Source: a bacterium (GTDB lineage: Bacteria > Ratteibacteria > UBA8468 > B48-G9 > JAFGKM01). From it: a stretch of DNA of 43,757 bases. Shown one piece after another: positions 16,701-24,235 of the stretch (positions within the stretch are counted from its first letter, which is position 1; every line of letters starts with the position of its first letter). The stretch spans positions 1-43,757 of the forward strand of contig JAOAIL010000004.1 in assembly GCA_026414725.1 (NCBI GenBank). The letters run 5' to 3'. The notes under the pieces were generated by a model. It saw only the letters and a list, made by a program, of their open reading frames with translations, was not told where the DNA came from and searched no databases. A program made the position numbers and the translations under genes.

Positions 16701-19673
16701 CTAAAACTGTATCTCCAGTGTTAATATCCTGTAAGGTGCGATATTAAATTTAATGCTTTTCCCCCTCCATCCTTTCAACTCTTTTTCTCTTTTTTCCACA
16801 CTGTTTGTAATATACACCTTTTTGGGTTTTTTTACAAAATCAATCTTTATGATTTCCTTTTTACCCTCTACTTCAACCAGCCGTAATATATAAGAATTTC
16901 TTCCCAGTGCCCTCTTGAAAGAAGTTGGAACTACATTTCCTTTTATTTCAAATGGATAAAACTCCTCTGATTCTGTTTTTCCTGATATAGCCAGTGGAGG
17001 TGTATTATATTCCATTGCTAATTTAGTAATATCAGTTATACTGGATTTACCAAAGAACAATCTATAGGAGATTAGATGTTTCCCTTTGTCAGGTACAGCA
17101 TCTGGTTCATAAGGGTTTCTTAAAAGCGTCAAAGATAGATTATTTCCGTCAATATTGTATCCATGTTTTTCTTTATTCATCAGAACTACCCAGTAATTCC
17201 CTTCTTTCTGCCCTGCCCATTTTAATGCAGGATATTCCTTTCCGATGGGTTCTCTTTTTATTGCCCCAAAGGGTATTTCAAAGTATGTATCAGGATTCTT
17301 CAGCGCTGTATGGAAGTTGACCCTTAACATAGGTACCCCTTCTTTACTATTCCCTTCTTCATTCCAGACAATCTGATTAACAAAATCAATATAGGGAAAA
17401 TCGTTATAAAGGAATATCTTTTGTATAATCTCTGAGTTTCTATATGTTCGTTTGATGTATATTGTGGTTTTAAAATTCTCTGTAATTGTCTTTATCTCCT
17501 CCAGATTAAAAAGGTTCTCTATCCTATAGATATTTCCTATTAGCCAGGCACTTGCACTGTGAGGTGCTTCCCAGCATACACTTATAAGATTACCACCTTT
17601 TTCTGCATACCAGGTATATATATCCTCCCAGATACTCATATGTGTAAAAAGTACCTCACGACTGTTCTTCTTATCAAAAAGTCGTTTTATTATCCCTGTT
17701 TGCCTGTCCATCTTCATTATGTAAAACTCATTCTCATATTCCTCCTCGTAATCATAAAGCCCATCTTTATTTATAGTTAGTTTCCCTTTTCCAGATATGT
17801 TTTTACATTCCTCAATACAGATTGTTTTATATCCATATCCAGGTATCTCAACAAAAGTTTCTTGATTTTTTTCTTCGTATAGATACTTTCTTTTCCATCC
17901 CAGCGGGTTGAATAGAGTTATGCTGTGCTTATTATTTTTCTGAACAAGTTTCTCAAGCAATGTACTGGAGAGTTCACTACACTTTTTTTCTACCTCATCA
18001 GCAAGTTTTCCTGAAAATTCATAAGATGAATGTATTGCAGAACCGTCAATAATATCGTGGAATTGATTGAACAGTACTGTACGCCATAACTCTTCTAATT
18101 CTTTTTCAGGAGCGGAGATACCTTTCATATGCATTATTACAGATAGTGTTTCTAAAGAAAGGAGCATTGTCTCACCTGTCCTGTTGGCTTTTTTAATATC
18201 AGAGTGTGTGGTATAACATCCTTCCAGTGTTGCATTCAATTCATCTGCCACTACAGGAATTTTATTTCTATATCTTTCAACCGCTCTAAAATATCTGAGT
18301 GTTGTAGAAAATTCAAGCTTTGGTAATACTGGTTTTGTCTCCATCTTCTGTTTTCTCTTTATATCCGCTTCCGTAGGTCCTCCCCCATGGTCTCCCACTC
18401 CGTAAACAAAAAGAAAGTCAGGTAGATTGTATCTTTTGTGATATTCAAGAAAAACAGGGATAGTAGTTTCAGGTCTGATAGAGTTGTTATATATACTATT
18501 AAAAGCAAGCAGTTCACTGCCATCTTTACCCTTCCATCTTAAAAGGGGTAGTCCTTTACCACATCTCATAAAATAATAATATTTAATACCTGCACCTGCC
18601 AGTATAGATGGTAGTGTCCCTGCATGTCCGAAACCATCAGGTGCCCAGAATATCTCTGATTTTACTCCGAAATTTTCTGATATATATTTATTGGCATAAA
18701 GTATATGCCGTATAAAGGACTCTCCATCCACTATATTCATATCACTTTCCACCCAGGAGGAGGCGGTAATGTCCCATCTTCCTTCTTTTACCTTTTCCTT
18801 TACCTTCTCAAACAATGCAGGGTTATGGTCTTCAACGATTTTGTATATATGTGCCTGGCTTTGAGAGAAGGTCAGGTCAGGGTATCTATCCATAAGTTTT
18901 GTGACTGTATCAAAATCACGCAGACATGTATCAATAGTATCTTCATAGGTCCAGAGCCAGTTCATATCAATATGGGCATGTCCTATAAGATGGACAGTAT
19001 ATCTCTTTGCTTCTTTTCGGAATGGTTCAAGCGCTTCTTCTGCTTTTTTAATGTCATTTAAGATATTATCCCAGTTTCTATCCTTAATATCCTGCACATT
19101 TATAAAAGAGAGTGCTTTATCCAGATTTTTTTGTAGATTTTTTGATTTTTTAGAAAGTTCCATAGCAAATTTCAACTGGAAAAGTAAGGAGTTAAGTTCA
19201 AAGAGGACTTCTTCAACTCTGTTGATAACAATCTGAGCACTGAAATATCTAAATCCATCTGCAGTGGATGTTTTAAAAACAAGAAAATATCTTTCTCCAG
19301 GAATAGCATTTTTAACAAAAGTAATAACAGGACCCCCTCTCGTATCTGCCCAGTATTTCTGTGAGTAAATCTCTTTCCCGTTAATAAAAAGTTTTGTATT
19401 TGAAAGGATAAGGAAAATGATAGAAATTTCGCTTCCTTCAATTTTTACACCTTCTATTATATCTGGAACAGTAAAATATGTTCTGAAGTATGCAGGTCCA
19501 TCATTAGGTTGCCATCTTGCATTAGATGTTTTTTCTTCCCATCCGCTATCATCTATGTCAGGGTTTTCTCCATTTTCTATGCCCTGTATAAACTTCCACT
19601 TTACAGTAATTTGCTCTTCAATCTTTTTCTGAACATCCTTTATAATCCTCTCAAGTTCCAGTATCTTTTCCAT
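16701..19673 (-). CDS. Alpha-mannosidase, glycoside hydrolase family 38
   Basis: A 990-residue GH38 enzyme that removes alpha-linked mannose (EC 3.2.1.24). N-terminal beta domain (1 to about 220) with QPNDGPAYFRTYF; catalytic barrel with zinc motif GHAHIDMNWLW (His234, Asp236), and WAPDGFGHAGTLP with nucleophile Asp346; then the three-helix bundle with FNQFHDIIDGSAIHSSYE, and C-terminal beta domains. No signal peptide is visible, so it is probably cytoplasmic and acts on imported oligosaccharides. A promoter at 19704-19732 and an AAAGGAGAAGAG ribosome site precede the ATG at 19673. Its partner GH130 gene lies beyond the tRNA. Confidence 0.93.
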   Translation of the reverse strand: MEKILELERIIKDVQKKIEEQITVKWKFIQGIENGENPDIDDSGWEEKTSNARWQPNDGPAYFRTYFTVPDIIEGVKIEGSEISIIFLILSNTKLFINGKEIYSQKYWADTRGGPVITFVKNAIPGERYFLVFKTSTADGFRYFSAQIVINRVEEVLFELNSLLFQLKFAMELSKKSKNLQKNLDKALSFINVQDIKDRNWDNILNDIKKAEEALEPFRKEAKRYTVHLIGHAHIDMNWLWTYEDTIDTCLRDFDTVTKLMDRYPDLTFSQSQAHIYKIVEDHNPALFEKVKEKVKEGRWDITASSWVESDMNIVDGESFIRHILYANKYISENFGVKSEIFWAPDGFGHAGTLPSILAGAGIKYYYFMRCGKGLPLLRWKGKDGSELLAFNSIYNNSIRPETTIPVFLEYHKRYNLPDFLFVYGVGDHGGGPTEADIKRKQKMETKPVLPKLEFSTTLRYFRAVERYRNKIPVVADELNATLEGCYTTHSDIKKANRTGETMLLSLETLSVIMHMKGISAPEKELEELWRTVLFNQFHDIIDGSAIHSSYEFSGKLADEVEKKCSELSSTLLEKLVQKNNKHSITLFNPLGWKRKYLYEEKNQETFVEIPGYGYKTICIEECKNISGKGKLTINKDGLYDYEEEYENEFYIMKMDRQTGIIKRLFDKKNSREVLFTHMSIWEDIYTWYAEKGGNLISVCWEAPHSASAWLIGNIYRIENLFNLEEIKTITENFKTTIYIKRTYRNSEIIQKIFLYNDFPYIDFVNQIVWNEEGNSKEGVPMLRVNFHTALKNPDTYFEIPFGAIKREPIGKEYPALKWAGQKEGNYWVVLMNKEKHGYNIDGNNLSLTLLRNPYEPDAVPDKGKHLISYRLFFGKSSITDITKLAMEYNTPPLAISGKTESEEFYPFEIKGNVVPTSFKRALGRNSYILRLVEVEGKKEIIKIDFVKKPKKVYITNSVEKREKELKGWRGKSIKFNIAPYRILTLEIQF

Positions 19674-20137: not shown

Positions 20138-21052
20138 TTAACTATTTTCTTTAACAAAGAGGATAAGGTCATATATATTCACTGTAGCCATACAGACATA
20201 TGTGTCTGCTGCTCCATAATATATCCGTAGTGTTTTTTTATCTTTTTCCAGAATAGTTGCTGTTGGAAACACTACATTAGGCACATCCCCTATCCTTTCA
20301 TATTCCATACTAGGTGCCAGGATATATTTTTTTGAGCGGTATAAGACATTCCAAGGACTCTCTTTATCAAGTATTGCCGCACCAGCACTATAGACAAACC
20401 CATTACAGGATGTCAGAACACCATGGTATATTAATAGCCATCCCTCTTCTATCTCTATAGGGACAGGTCCTGCACCTATCTTTGTCTTTTCCCAGGGCAT
20501 TTCAGGTTTCATTACCAGACGATGTCTCCCCCAGAATTTAAGGTCAGGGCTCTGGGAACAGAATATATTTCCAAATGGAGTATGTCCATAATCACTGGGG
20601 CGGCTTAACATAGTATAAAGACCACCTATCTTACGAGGAAAAAGCACACCATTCCTGTTGGCGGGAAGGAATGCATCTTCCATTTGATAGAATGTTTGAA
20701 AGTCCTCTGTCCATCCCATACCAATAGTAGGTCCGTTTACATCATTACACCATGTTATGTAATATCTCCCCTCTATACAGGTGACTCTCGGGTCATAACT
20801 GAATCCTATTTTAATATCAGTGTTTTCTTGTACAAACTTGATGGGTTCATCACTGATTTCCCATTTTACTCCATCCTTACTGAAACCAGCCCTGAGGGTG
20901 GCAAATCTCGTCCTGTCATCTATTCTGAAAATCCCTGCATATCCATCCTTAAACGGGACTATTGCACTGTTGAAGATTGAGTTTGCCCCTTTTACATCCT
21001 CTGGTTTAATAATAGGGTTTCCTTCATATCTTTTTACAGGTGAGTCGTACAT
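20138..21052 (-). CDS. GH130-family mannoside phosphorylase/glycosidase
   Basis: 304-residue five-bladed beta-propeller of family GH130, whose members phosphorolyse or hydrolyse beta-mannosides such as mannosyl-glucose or mannosyl-N-acetylglucosamine. Family marks: the N-terminal RYEGNPIIKPEDV, SYDPRVT with the probable catalytic Asp87, GRYYITWCND, LSRPSDYGHTPFGNIFCSQS, KIGAGPVPIE and IYHGV. The subfamily, and so phosphorylase versus hydrolase, cannot be fixed by eye. The ATG at 21052 has a strong AGGAGGGG site placed inside the end of the preceding amidohydrolase region. With GH38 it suggests use of mannose-containing glycans. Confidence 0.9.
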   Translation of the reverse strand: MYDSPVKRYEGNPIIKPEDVKGANSIFNSAIVPFKDGYAGIFRIDDRTRFATLRAGFSKDGVKWEISDEPIKFVQENTDIKIGFSYDPRVTCIEGRYYITWCNDVNGPTIGMGWTEDFQTFYQMEDAFLPANRNGVLFPRKIGGLYTMLSRPSDYGHTPFGNIFCSQSPDLKFWGRHRLVMKPEMPWEKTKIGAGPVPIEIEEGWLLIYHGVLTSCNGFVYSAGAAILDKESPWNVLYRSKKYILAPSMEYERIGDVPNVVFPTATILEKDKKTLRIYYGAADTYVCMATVNIYDLILFVKENS

Positions 21053-21062
21053 ATTTCCCCTC

Positions 21063-21779
21063 CTAAATTTTTAGAAGTTTTTTTGCATTATTATAGAAGA
21101 TATCTTCTTTTTCTTCTTCAGTTAATTTCCAGAAGTTTATCTTTGCTATATCTATCTCCGGTGGAATTAATGGTCCATCTGAACCAAATATTAGTTTTTT
21201 GCTTCCAACCTTTTCAATCGCTTTACCGATAAAACCAACTGCTCTTACATATGATGTATCAAAATACAAATTTTCTGTTTCATTAGCAAGGTCCAGGAGT
21301 TTTTCTAACACTGTCTGGTCCTCTCCTCCTAAATGTGCGACTACTATCTTGGCAGATGGGTAGTTTTTAACAATCTCTTTCACTGGTTCAAATTCAGCAC
21401 AGCAATCTATTAAACAGGGTATATCAAGTTCTATACACTTTTCAATCAGTGGAAAGATAAGATATCCTTCAAGGGTATGAATCCCTCTATGGACTTTAAC
21501 CCCTTTAAAACCATATTCATTAACCGCTCTTTCTATCTCTTCACATACATTTGTGTTAAAGGCAGGGATACCTGTGGCAAAGCCAATCAATCTATCAGGG
21601 AACTTTTTTACCTCTTTATATGTTTTTAGATTACCTTCTCTCGCAGATATACATATTGAGAAGACAACACTTCTTTCAATACCTGCCCTGTCCATTATCT
21701 TTATAATCTCTTCTCCGGTTGCTTCTGTTCTGTCTCTGTCCCCACCCTTTATATGCATATGAAAGTCAATAATCTTCAT
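21063..21779 (-). CDS. Amidohydrolase-fold (TIM-barrel) metal hydrolase, copy A
   Basis: 238 residues of the Amidohydro_2 type. Metal motif DFHMH (His7, His9), then IVVAHLGGED, then FGSDGPLIPPE near the C-terminus with the barrel-end Asp. At the strand-5 site, where relatives usually carry His, the sequence reads LIDCCAEFEP. The substrate is unknown; relatives are lactonases, decarboxylases and deacetylases. Its ATG overlaps the stop of copy B by 4 bp (ATGA). It sits in a run of nitrilase, three amidohydrolases and GH130. Confidence 0.8.
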   Translation of the reverse strand: MKIIDFHMHIKGGDRDRTEATGEEIIKIMDRAGIERSVVFSICISAREGNLKTYKEVKKFPDRLIGFATGIPAFNTNVCEEIERAVNEYGFKGVKVHRGIHTLEGYLIFPLIEKCIELDIPCLIDCCAEFEPVKEIVKNYPSAKIVVAHLGGEDQTVLEKLLDLANETENLYFDTSYVRAVGFIGKAIEKVGSKKLIFGSDGPLIPPEIDIAKINFWKLTEEEKEDIFYNNAKKLLKI

Positions 21780-22522
21780 TTTAAGCGACCTCCTGACAGG
21801 TTTATTATATTCTTATAAGCTACTTTTTCAACTATGTCTTTTTCAACTTCTGCATAGCCAAGTTTTGCTATCCCTGCTTCCGTATATAAAAATGGTGTAT
21901 GACTGCCAAAAACGAGTTTATCAGGCGAGATTTCTTTTAACAGGGATTTTATGGTTTTAAAATACTCAGCAAAAGAGATATCAGAGTACACATTATCAAT
22001 CTTACATAGTTGAATAATCTCTGAAAAATATCCACAGAGAAGGATAATCTTTATATCAGGATAGTTTACAGCAAAATTTTTTATCTCTTCCAGAGATGGA
22101 CTACCTATCTTAAAGGCAGGGTTATGGCTTCTTTCATCTTCATATCTCATCTGTAGAAAAACGAGGATTTTTTTATCGGATATCTTCTGGAAGAGATAGG
22201 AGAACTTTTTATCATTTAAAGAATAGAGATGATAAGAGGGAGCAATCTTGATATATCTAAAATTTTCTATTATCTCTTCTGCATCTGTAAGGGCAGGATT
22301 TACAGCAGGGACAAAGCAGAAGAACTTATTATCTTTTATTTTCTTATGCAATTCTTCGTTATATTCTTCTACCTCTTGGAAGTTCAACGCACAGCCAAGA
22401 TGGGAAATGAAACATTTAGAGATTTTATTTTTTCTTAGTTTCTTTTCAATCCCTTTTATTGTATTTATAGATAATCTCCTGAATGGCCAGTTTCCATAAT
22501 TTACATTGACATCAATCAGCAT
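21776..22522 (-). CDS. Amidohydrolase-fold protein lacking metal ligands (pseudoenzyme), copy B
   Basis: 248 residues with the same length and segment order as its two neighbours, but with the catalytic motifs gone. The HxH start is DVNVN (Asn6, Asn8), the usual AHLGG segment is ILLCGYFSE, and the final FGSD is FGSHTPFLYTE. The frame is intact and tightly overlapped on both sides, so this is a maintained protein rather than decay. A regulatory or structural partner of copies A or C is a reasonable guess. An AAAGGATATTGAAGAT stretch precedes the ATG. Confidence 0.72.
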   Translation of the reverse strand: MLIDVNVNYGNWPFRRLSINTIKGIEKKLRKNKISKCFISHLGCALNFQEVEEYNEELHKKIKDNKFFCFVPAVNPALTDAEEIIENFRYIKIAPSYHLYSLNDKKFSYLFQKISDKKILVFLQMRYEDERSHNPAFKIGSPSLEEIKNFAVNYPDIKIILLCGYFSEIIQLCKIDNVYSDISFAEYFKTIKSLLKEISPDKLVFGSHTPFLYTEAGIAKLGYAEVEKDIVEKVAYKNIINLSGGRLK

Positions 22523-23286
22523 ATCTTCAATATCCTTTCTGCATTTTTAAATAGAATATCTTCTTTTTCTTTTGTTTTAATATTGCTTTCAATAACTGTT
22601 TTCAACTGTACAGGAAGGTCTCTTCCGCCTGGAAAATAGATATCAGAACCGAACAAAATCCTCTCAGACCCTATCTTTTTGACTGCATACTCAATGATTC
22701 CTACAACTGGCTGGGCACCTGATGTATCTATATAAACATTGCTATATCCTTTAATTGCTATTATGCCTCTGATATCAATCCCTCTTAAATGGGCAACAAT
22801 AAGGGTTAGTTCAGGAAAGTTTTTTATAAGAGTTATTATATCTGTGGGGTCTGTCTGATAACATTCCGGGGAAGGATTTTTTCCTAATGTTAGTGTATTC
22901 CAGCAGTGGTGGAGTAAAGGAATATTTAAATTCTGCGCAATATCTGCAATAAAAAAGACACGTTTATCAGAGGCAAATGTAGATGCTTCAAGTTTAATTC
23001 CCTTAAGTTTGTTATTCAATATACATCTCTCAACCTCTTCCGCTATAAACTTTTTTGAGTTTTTAGGATTTAAGAAACAAAACCCGGTGAAAAAGGCAGG
23101 ATATTTTCTGGTTAGGAAAATAGTTAAATCATTTATTTCTCTTACCTGTCCTTCTTGGGGATTATATCCATACTTTAATACATCTCCGAGAAGACACATT
23201 TTGATTACATTTAACCTTTCAGCATATTCTATTACATCTTCACACTCTTTTATCTGGATATGGGTATGTATATCAATTACTTTCAT
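22516..23286 (-). CDS. Amidohydrolase-fold (TIM-barrel) metal hydrolase, copy C
   Basis: 256 residues with the complete set of expected motifs: DIHTH (His7, His9), PLLHHCWNT (strand-5 His), LIVAHLRGID and FGSDIYFPGGR. Metal-dependent hydrolase or decarboxylase; substrate unknown. It is first of the three amidohydrolase genes and overlaps copy B by 7 bp. The start at 23286 has no ribosome site (preceding bases ATCTCCTTCCAA on the coding strand), 13 bp after the nitrilase stop. Confidence 0.8.
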   Translation of the reverse strand: MKVIDIHTHIQIKECEDVIEYAERLNVIKMCLLGDVLKYGYNPQEGQVREINDLTIFLTRKYPAFFTGFCFLNPKNSKKFIAEEVERCILNNKLKGIKLEASTFASDKRVFFIADIAQNLNIPLLHHCWNTLTLGKNPSPECYQTDPTDIITLIKNFPELTLIVAHLRGIDIRGIIAIKGYSNVYIDTSGAQPVVGIIEYAVKKIGSERILFGSDIYFPGGRDLPVQLKTVIESNIKTKEKEDILFKNAERILKIC

Positions 23287-23299
23287 TTGGAAGGAGATA

Positions 23300-24235
23300 T
23301 TATTTTATATTTTTTTCTCTGTGGGTAAGTGCCCTGTTAAAATAATCATCAAGAAGTTCTATGTCAAACTCTTTTATAATCTCTTTTATTGTTTTATCCT
23401 GCATTTCACAGGTAATTAAAACAGAACCCAAAAGTCCAGGGTCATATATCTTTACACCCGAACCATACTTTTTCTTCATCTCTTTGAACTTTCTCTCATT
23501 ATAACTGATAAAAGCAACACAATAGTCGAGATTTATGTCTGCAGTGATATAAGGAGTATAGTTTGTAGTAGAGGTGATAATTTCACCTACTGGTGAAATG
23601 ATAGTTCCTGGCAGCGTAGAGGTTGCACCGACAAAGTATGCCCTGCAGGAATAAGCCCAGTATCTTTGAAGGAGTCCTCCATGTGCCATAGATGAGAAAA
23701 GAATTATTTCAGGTCTTTTCTCTACATACTGTAATCTTAACCTGTCAAAATTTAAGTCGAAACATATTACACACCCTATATTCCCGAAATCACATTGTAT
23801 TAAAGGTGCTTCTGTCCCATAAGCGAGTCCGTAAACTGTATTTTCTTCTATTACGAGGTGGTTCTTATGGTATATACCAGCGATATTGCCATCTCTATCA
23901 ATAATCCTTGTAGAATTTCTCCATATACCATTTTCATCTTCCATTACCGCAGGATATGTAATATAACAGTTATTATTTCTTGCTATTTCTCTAAAATAGT
24001 CAAGTATTTGAGTTCCTCTTTCTTTATAGTATTCCATAATTTTCTCTTGAGGTAGATTAGATGGCCAGTCACATACTTCAGGGAGAACAATGAGGTCTGG
24101 TCTATCAGGTAAAACTTCTTGGATAAGAGCATCTAAATGTTTTTTTATCTGGTTAATTATACTTTGATAGTTGGAAGATAGGTCAACAGATGTATATCCG
24201 CTGCTTATATTACTTATCCTTACATATCTTGCCAT
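23300..24235 (-). CDS. Carbon-nitrogen hydrolase (nitrilase superfamily)
   Basis: 311 residues with the nitrilase-superfamily triad: Glu53 (LPEVCDWP), Lys124 (YHKNHL) and Cys158 (CVICFDLNFDRLR). Members are amidases, carbamylases and nitrilases that cut or condense C-N bonds; the exact substrate is not readable. It lies 16 bp after the LysM lipoprotein and 13 bp before amidohydrolase C, so probably one transcript. The start at 24235 lacks a clear ribosome site. Its place beside amidohydrolases suggests stepwise release of an amide- or carbamoyl-bearing compound. Confidence 0.85.
   Translation of the reverse strand: MARYVRISNISSGYTSVDLSSNYQSIINQIKKHLDALIQEVLPDRPDLIVLPEVCDWPSNLPQEKIMEYYKERGTQILDYFREIARNNNCYITYPAVMEDENGIWRNSTRIIDRDGNIAGIYHKNHLVIEENTVYGLAYGTEAPLIQCDFGNIGCVICFDLNFDRLRLQYVEKRPEIILFSSMAHGGLLQRYWAYSCRAYFVGATSTLPGTIISPVGEIITSTTNYTPYITADINLDYCVAFISYNERKFKEMKKKYGSGVKIYDPGLLGSVLITCEMQDKTIKEIIKEFDIELLDDYFNRALTHREKNIK

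Follow-up and report, generated by a model that had tools for sequence, protein, structure and literature searches.

Genes and metal-site residues at the locus

The window, which is the whole stretch of 43,757 nucleotides analysed here, carries three amidohydrolase genes (copies A, B and C) on its minus strand. In the order of transcription, a carbon-nitrogen hydrolase gene is followed by A, B and C, and then by a GH130-type and a GH38-type gene (Table 1). The carbon-nitrogen hydrolase gene and A probably belong to one transcription unit. The tight overlaps of B described in the first-pass annotation agree with the ORF coordinates, which give 7 bp between A and B and 4 bp between B and C. The glycan-related neighbours, GH130 and GH38, lie downstream of the A-B-C cluster.

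Table 1. Features of the A-B-C locus and of two further pairs in the same genome
Feature	Position	Strand	Description
Carbon-nitrogen hydrolase	23300..24235	minus	PF00795, E 5.7e-22; upstream, 13 bp from A
Copy A	22516..23286	minus	256 aa; PF04909, E 2.9e-18; intact AH2, proposed catalytic partner of B
Copy B	21776..22522	minus	248 aa; PF04909, E 1.5e-9; pseudo-amidohydrolase, 5/5 metal-site residues replaced
B codons 6-8, NVN of DVNVN	22499..22507	minus	in place of strand-1 HxH
B codons 12-15, WPFR motif	22478..22489	minus	typical of AP pseudo lineage
B codon 124, Gln	22151..22153	minus	strand-5 His position (VFLQMR)
B codons 126-131, RxxDxR	22130..22147	minus	loop after strand 5; typical of AP pseudo lineage
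B codon 163, Cys	22034..22036	minus	strand-6 His position
B codon 208, His (FGSH)	21899..21901	minus	strand-8 Asp position
Copy C	21063..21779	minus	238 aa; PF04909, E 1.5e-30; separate AH2, outside conserved A-B pair
GH130-type mannoside phosphorylase	20138..21052	minus	PF04041, E 1.7e-60; downstream, 10 bp from C
GH38-type alpha-mannosidase	16701..19673	minus	PF01074, E 4.1e-62; 464-bp gap after GH130-type gene
Further pair (L002)	G000:C5:7733-9272		8-bp overlap
Further pair (L004)	G000:C11:4885-6412		8-bp overlap

Five metal-site positions (HxH, strand 5, strand 6 and strand 8) were read off the profile alignment. A carries the complete set HHHHD, and these ligands are invariant in 11 relatives. 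B reads NNQCH at the same positions, with the replacements N6, N8, Q124, C163 and H208. The losses named by the first-pass annotation (both His of HxH, the strand-6 His and the final Asp) are all real, and the strand-5 His, which it did not list, is a fifth. Its picture of B between two intact-looking relatives holds for A and fails for C, which reads HHDHD and has an Asp at the strand-5 His position (CLIDCC). An Asp is also found at this position in another AH2 of the same genome (L040, HHDGD), and the shared feature suggests that a separate metal-site variant with a strand-5 Asp may exist.

B exceeds the gathering score of PF04909 Amidohydro_2 (38.5 bits vs 26.4), and the amidohydrolase TIM-barrel fold is retained in its AF2 model (pLDDT 74, pTM 0.80). 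Foldseek finds this model most like AH2 decarboxylases and ACMSD-type structures, with an E-value of about 1e-6. The model was built from five aligned rows, and its top loops and N-terminus have pLDDT below 50; confidence is low at the N-terminal end and in the loops that follow strands 5 and 8. The AF2 model of A (pLDDT 86.7, pTM 0.87) also resembles decarboxylases, including ACMSD. In sequence searches of the PDB, B alone gives no useful match, and the best solved match is 3cjp for the A profile and the B profile alike; it is uncharacterised, like other such AH2 structures. The catalytic metal ligands of PF04909 (HxH, strand-5 and strand-6 His, strand-8 Asp) are absent from B, which belongs to the family by descent, not by catalysis.

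Pairing and fusion with an intact sister

A B orthologue with 66% identity and the same ligand losses is present in a Candidatus Omnitrophota genome (L006). A lies directly upstream of it with a 4-bp overlap and C is absent, which places C outside the conserved unit. In five remoter loci of the same phylum (L008-L011 and L032), an intact A-type gene is directly upstream in each case. Since the ligand losses recur in the Omnitrophota orthologue and in dozens of remoter relatives, they are due neither to chance nor to sequencing error.

A B-type profile was run over 386 genomes, and the regions around the matches were then fetched. A pseudo-copy was defined as keeping at most two of the five ligand positions. 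To count as its partner, an AH2 had to retain four or five of them and either share an ORF with the pseudo-copy or lie no more than 300 bp away on the same strand. A partner is adjacent or fused in 47 of 48 distinct pseudo-copies; 46 of these partners read HHHHD and one (L104) reads HHHHH. Many regions in the first set had been selected on their paired appearance, and for this reason more weight is given to the automatic and the later sets, which were not so chosen. The automatic set comprises the 30 loci with the top profile matches, in which the pseudo-copy was recovered in 28 and a partner in 28/28. When 199 genomes from another phylum were searched later, 19 loci emerged, 18 of them paired; one of the 19, L150, is a duplicate already counted as L104 among the 48. 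In the sole unpaired later locus (L140), the contig ends no more than about 80 bases from the pseudo-gene, on the side where the look-alike subgroup of L104, L149 and L150 carries its partner. A search of viral contigs found no relatives.

Several loci depart from the common pattern. In the same subgroup (L104:3883-5668, L149:571-2382 and L150:1384-3169), the 'active' partner itself has a His in strand 8 (FGSH) in place of the Asp, and in L149 the pseudo and partner halves form one ORF. A pseudo-copy at L098:10130-10867 (NCDGS) has no adjoining AH2, the nearest in the fetched stretch being about 5 kb away. L034 and L106 contain tandem AH2 pairs in which the readable ligand positions are intact in both copies; a tandem arrangement alone is therefore no sign of a dead partner.

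Pairs occur in two gene orders, active-pseudo (AP) and pseudo-active (PA). The genome of the window contains two more pairs in the order pseudo then active, opposite to that of A-B (Table 1). One of these follows a DegT aminotransferase gene and the other follows a gene for a 387-aa protein without a Pfam match.

Both orders are also found within single polypeptides. Pseudo-active ORFs of 514-572 aa, in which the pseudo domain is N-terminal and the HHHHD domain C-terminal, are present in L075, L076, L079, L080 and L081; L077 and L078 are fusions too, and their N-terminal half aligns only partly. Five haloarchaeal plasmids encode active-pseudo proteins of 558-565 aa, in which the HHHHD domain comes first and a B-type domain second, the domain order matching the A-B order of the window. 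In WP_254810888.1, for example, the HHHHD domain is followed by IVDANAYVGNWAFR and EDQRGRHP. The haloarchaeal B-type domains bear signatures of B, such as GNWPFR or GNWAFR and EDQR..HP, where B of the window has GNWPFR and YEDERSHNP. These fusions are annotated merely as 'amidohydrolase family protein'. When a haloarchaeal fusion was compared with the PDB, nearly all matches lay in the active half; the pseudo half had two weak matches (E about 0.004). A plasmid search with a PA-type pseudo-copy as query found none.

Descent, selection and conserved segments

A tree in which the ligand columns and their neighbours were masked places 36/36 pseudo rows on one side of a branch (bootstrap 99, SH-aLRT 94) and sets the active partners apart in the same way (93/91), with C on its own branch. 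The pseudo-copies form one lineage in this tree. Forcing the AP pseudo and AP active rows together, which represents a separate loss in the AP group, was rejected with modest strength (p-AU 0.031). Repeated independent ligand loss is disfavoured by the 99/94 pseudo branch and by this p-AU value, and the ligand loss appears to have had a single origin in the pseudo lineage. The trees of pseudo-copies and partners correlate with a mirror-tree r of 0.79 (permutation maximum 0.24); this correlation and the adjacency are also expected from shared operon inheritance and are not alone proof of contact.

Comparison of the window with the Omnitrophota locus (NG86) gives dN 0.231 and dS 1.86 for B, and dN 0.203 and dS 1.77 for A. 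The dN/dS ratio is about 0.12 for both, with dS near saturation. Among less diverged pairs, the ratio lies at about 0.07-0.31 in pseudo-copies and at 0.06-0.22 in partners, and the dN of pseudo-copies is up to about 2.5 times that of partners in most comparisons. These substitution ratios indicate that B is under purifying selection, without marked relaxation. Relaxed selection on B, which the first-pass annotation had named as an outcome against its proposal, was not observed to any marked degree, the ratio being about the same as that of A.

Two segments are typical of the AP pseudo lineage. In the WPFR motif, W and P are each present in 16/17 AP pseudo rows, and most active AP rows have a gap here. 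In the RxxDxR loop, R131 is present in 17/17, D129 in 16/17 and R126 in 14/17 AP pseudo rows; the loop is not found in the active partners and is absent from the PA half of the lineage. W12-P13, R126, D129 and R131 may mark a contact or substrate-binding surface. The old ligand positions (the second His of strand 1 and those in strands 5, 6 and 8) are filled by many residues across the pseudo lineage. An alternative conserved metal site in B was rejected because the replacement residues vary.

Proposed role of B

B is probably the obligate non-catalytic subunit of a heteromeric amidohydrolase of which A is the catalytic subunit. Because its relatives in bacteria and haloarchaea nearly always lie beside or are fused to a working sister, B has very probably been kept for good as a partner without catalysis, rather than being a gene in decay. 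The selection for a non-catalytic role suggested in the first-pass annotation is supported by purifying selection and conserved pairing. Its proposal of a heteromer with A or C is strongly supported for A by the comparative evidence of adjacency, fusions in A-B order, co-inheritance and purifying selection, and is not supported for C, which the Omnitrophota locus lacks. A physical A-B complex, a dependence of A on B and the nature of the substrate are inferences.

The two lineages would go back to an ancient duplication, after which one copy stayed an intact AH2 and the other lost its metal site in a single early event. Ever since, they would have been passed on jointly, encoded by overlapping genes or joined in a single polypeptide. 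In A, the metal would be held by HxH, the strand-5 His, the strand-6 His and the strand-8 Asp, an ACMSD-like set, and A would perform the chemistry. B would sit against A, making it more stable and giving its active site the right shape, and might help to bind the substrate through the conserved WPFR and RxxDxR segments. By analogy, stabilisation of A and ordering of its active site is the most likely contribution of B. A broader proposal is distinctly tentative: that these pairs form a large and ancient class of two-chain amidohydrolases, bacterial and archaeal, where the active site of one chain is completed in trans by its metal-free sister, for instance via RxxDxR or WPFR, and neither chain works alone.

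Other readings were weighed against the same observations. The view of B as a leftover of a recent duplication, now drifting, could draw on the loss of every metal ligand and on the faster change of pseudo-copies than of partners in most comparisons. However, the frame is open at 66% identity and a dS of about 1.9 from the Omnitrophota orthologue, dN/dS is about 0.12, and the lineage spans many families, haloarchaea included. Decay is exceedingly improbable and was discarded on the conserved open frame, the dN/dS ratio and the wide distribution. The 4-bp overlap with C in the window would also fit a pairing of B with C instead of A; this is very unlikely and was rejected because C is missing from the Omnitrophota locus, and C further lies on a separate tree branch and the fusions join A-type and B-type domains.

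B could instead be an enzyme in its own right, with a new metal-free site formed by the conserved D4, N6, R126, D129 and R131 that carries out a second step on the product of A. The AP half shows strong conservation of polar residues specific to the lineage, and fusion and adjacency would also be expected of consecutive enzymes. However, the old ligand positions carry many different residues and RxxDxR is missing from the PA half, so that no single new site extends throughout the lineage; the reading is unlikely. Retention of the TIM-barrel fold and of lineage-specific residues would also be consistent with a regulatory ligand sensor, in which a metabolite in the emptied pocket switches A allosterically. 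Nothing tells specifically against a sensor, which is nevertheless judged quite improbable; no regulatory context was found around these genes, and the fusions do not point to switching.

A heteromer of two amidohydrolases with one non-catalytic chain is already known. AibH1H2, the alpha-aminoisobutyrate hydroxylase of Rhodococcus wratislaviensis, is a heterotetramer of two AHS proteins that are 28% identical; AibH1 is thought to be non-catalytic, and without it no product is formed (PMC7782822). The catalytic metal loop of AibH2 contacts AibH1 (PMC12141560). Like the AibH1H2 type, A-B in the window and in its relatives consists of neighbouring AHS genes, of which one encodes a complete metal site; the divergence is similar (28% vs about 24% for A and B), and AibH2 is placed in PF04909, the family of A and B. 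Profile searches based on the alignment of either B or A do not name AibH1 or AibH2 among their matches. The AibH1H2 heteromer was seen in a crystal structure; the models of A and B are single chains, and their heteromer is a proposed one. AibH1 retains a mononuclear zinc site (Asp24, His26, His201, Glu255 and Asp328), and mutating those residues leads to an insoluble complex; in contrast, no ligand set is left in B and none is conserved in its lineage. AibH2 has a dinuclear site and uses ferredoxin and a reductase, whereas A has the ACMSD-like ligand set and no ferredoxin or reductase gene lies beside A-B in the window, the neighbours being the carbon-nitrogen hydrolase, AH2, GH130 and GH38 genes.

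In Pseudomonas aspartate transcarbamoylase, the inactive amidohydrolase-fold protein pDHO is an essential structural subunit (PMC7053772). Its partner, ATCase, has a different fold, whereas the partner of B is an intact amidohydrolase sister; ATCase is not among the neighbours searched in the window and related loci. ACMSD (2-amino-3-carboxymuconate-6-semialdehyde decarboxylase) shares the fold and five-residue metal site of A, with zinc ligands His9, His11, His177 and Asp294 and with His228 in the active site, and it depends on Arg239 donated by the adjacent subunit (PMC11650718). It is thus established that subunits of this fold can share active sites, and ACMSD offers a model for how B might act on A, although it is a dimer of identical catalytic subunits and not of unlike chains as proposed for A-B. 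No universal counterpart of Arg239 was found in the AP pseudo rows, where no residue in the segment following strand 6 reaches 70%. The literature searched, with most subscription journals outside its reach, contains no account of a ligand-less lineage paired or fused with intact sisters.

If the proposed role is correct, many 'amidohydrolase family protein' entries would stand for subunits without catalytic activity, whose intact neighbours may seem inactive or insoluble when expressed alone; recognition of the pairs would explain failed assays and correct annotation. Separate genes, overlapping genes and fusions would then form a natural series for a dead sister becoming an essential partner. 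The neighbours in related loci include class-III and DegT aminotransferases, Gfo/Idh oxidoreductases, a PfkB kinase, a heparinase-like protein and sulfatases. The gene context hints at the breakdown of sugars, sugar acids or amino sugars, and a sugar acid, lactone or amino sugar is a plausible substrate. In three loci (L112:8967-10184, L082:70-1233 and L084:5541-6854), the gene immediately upstream of the A-B pair encodes a class-III aminotransferase, a possible clue to the pathway.
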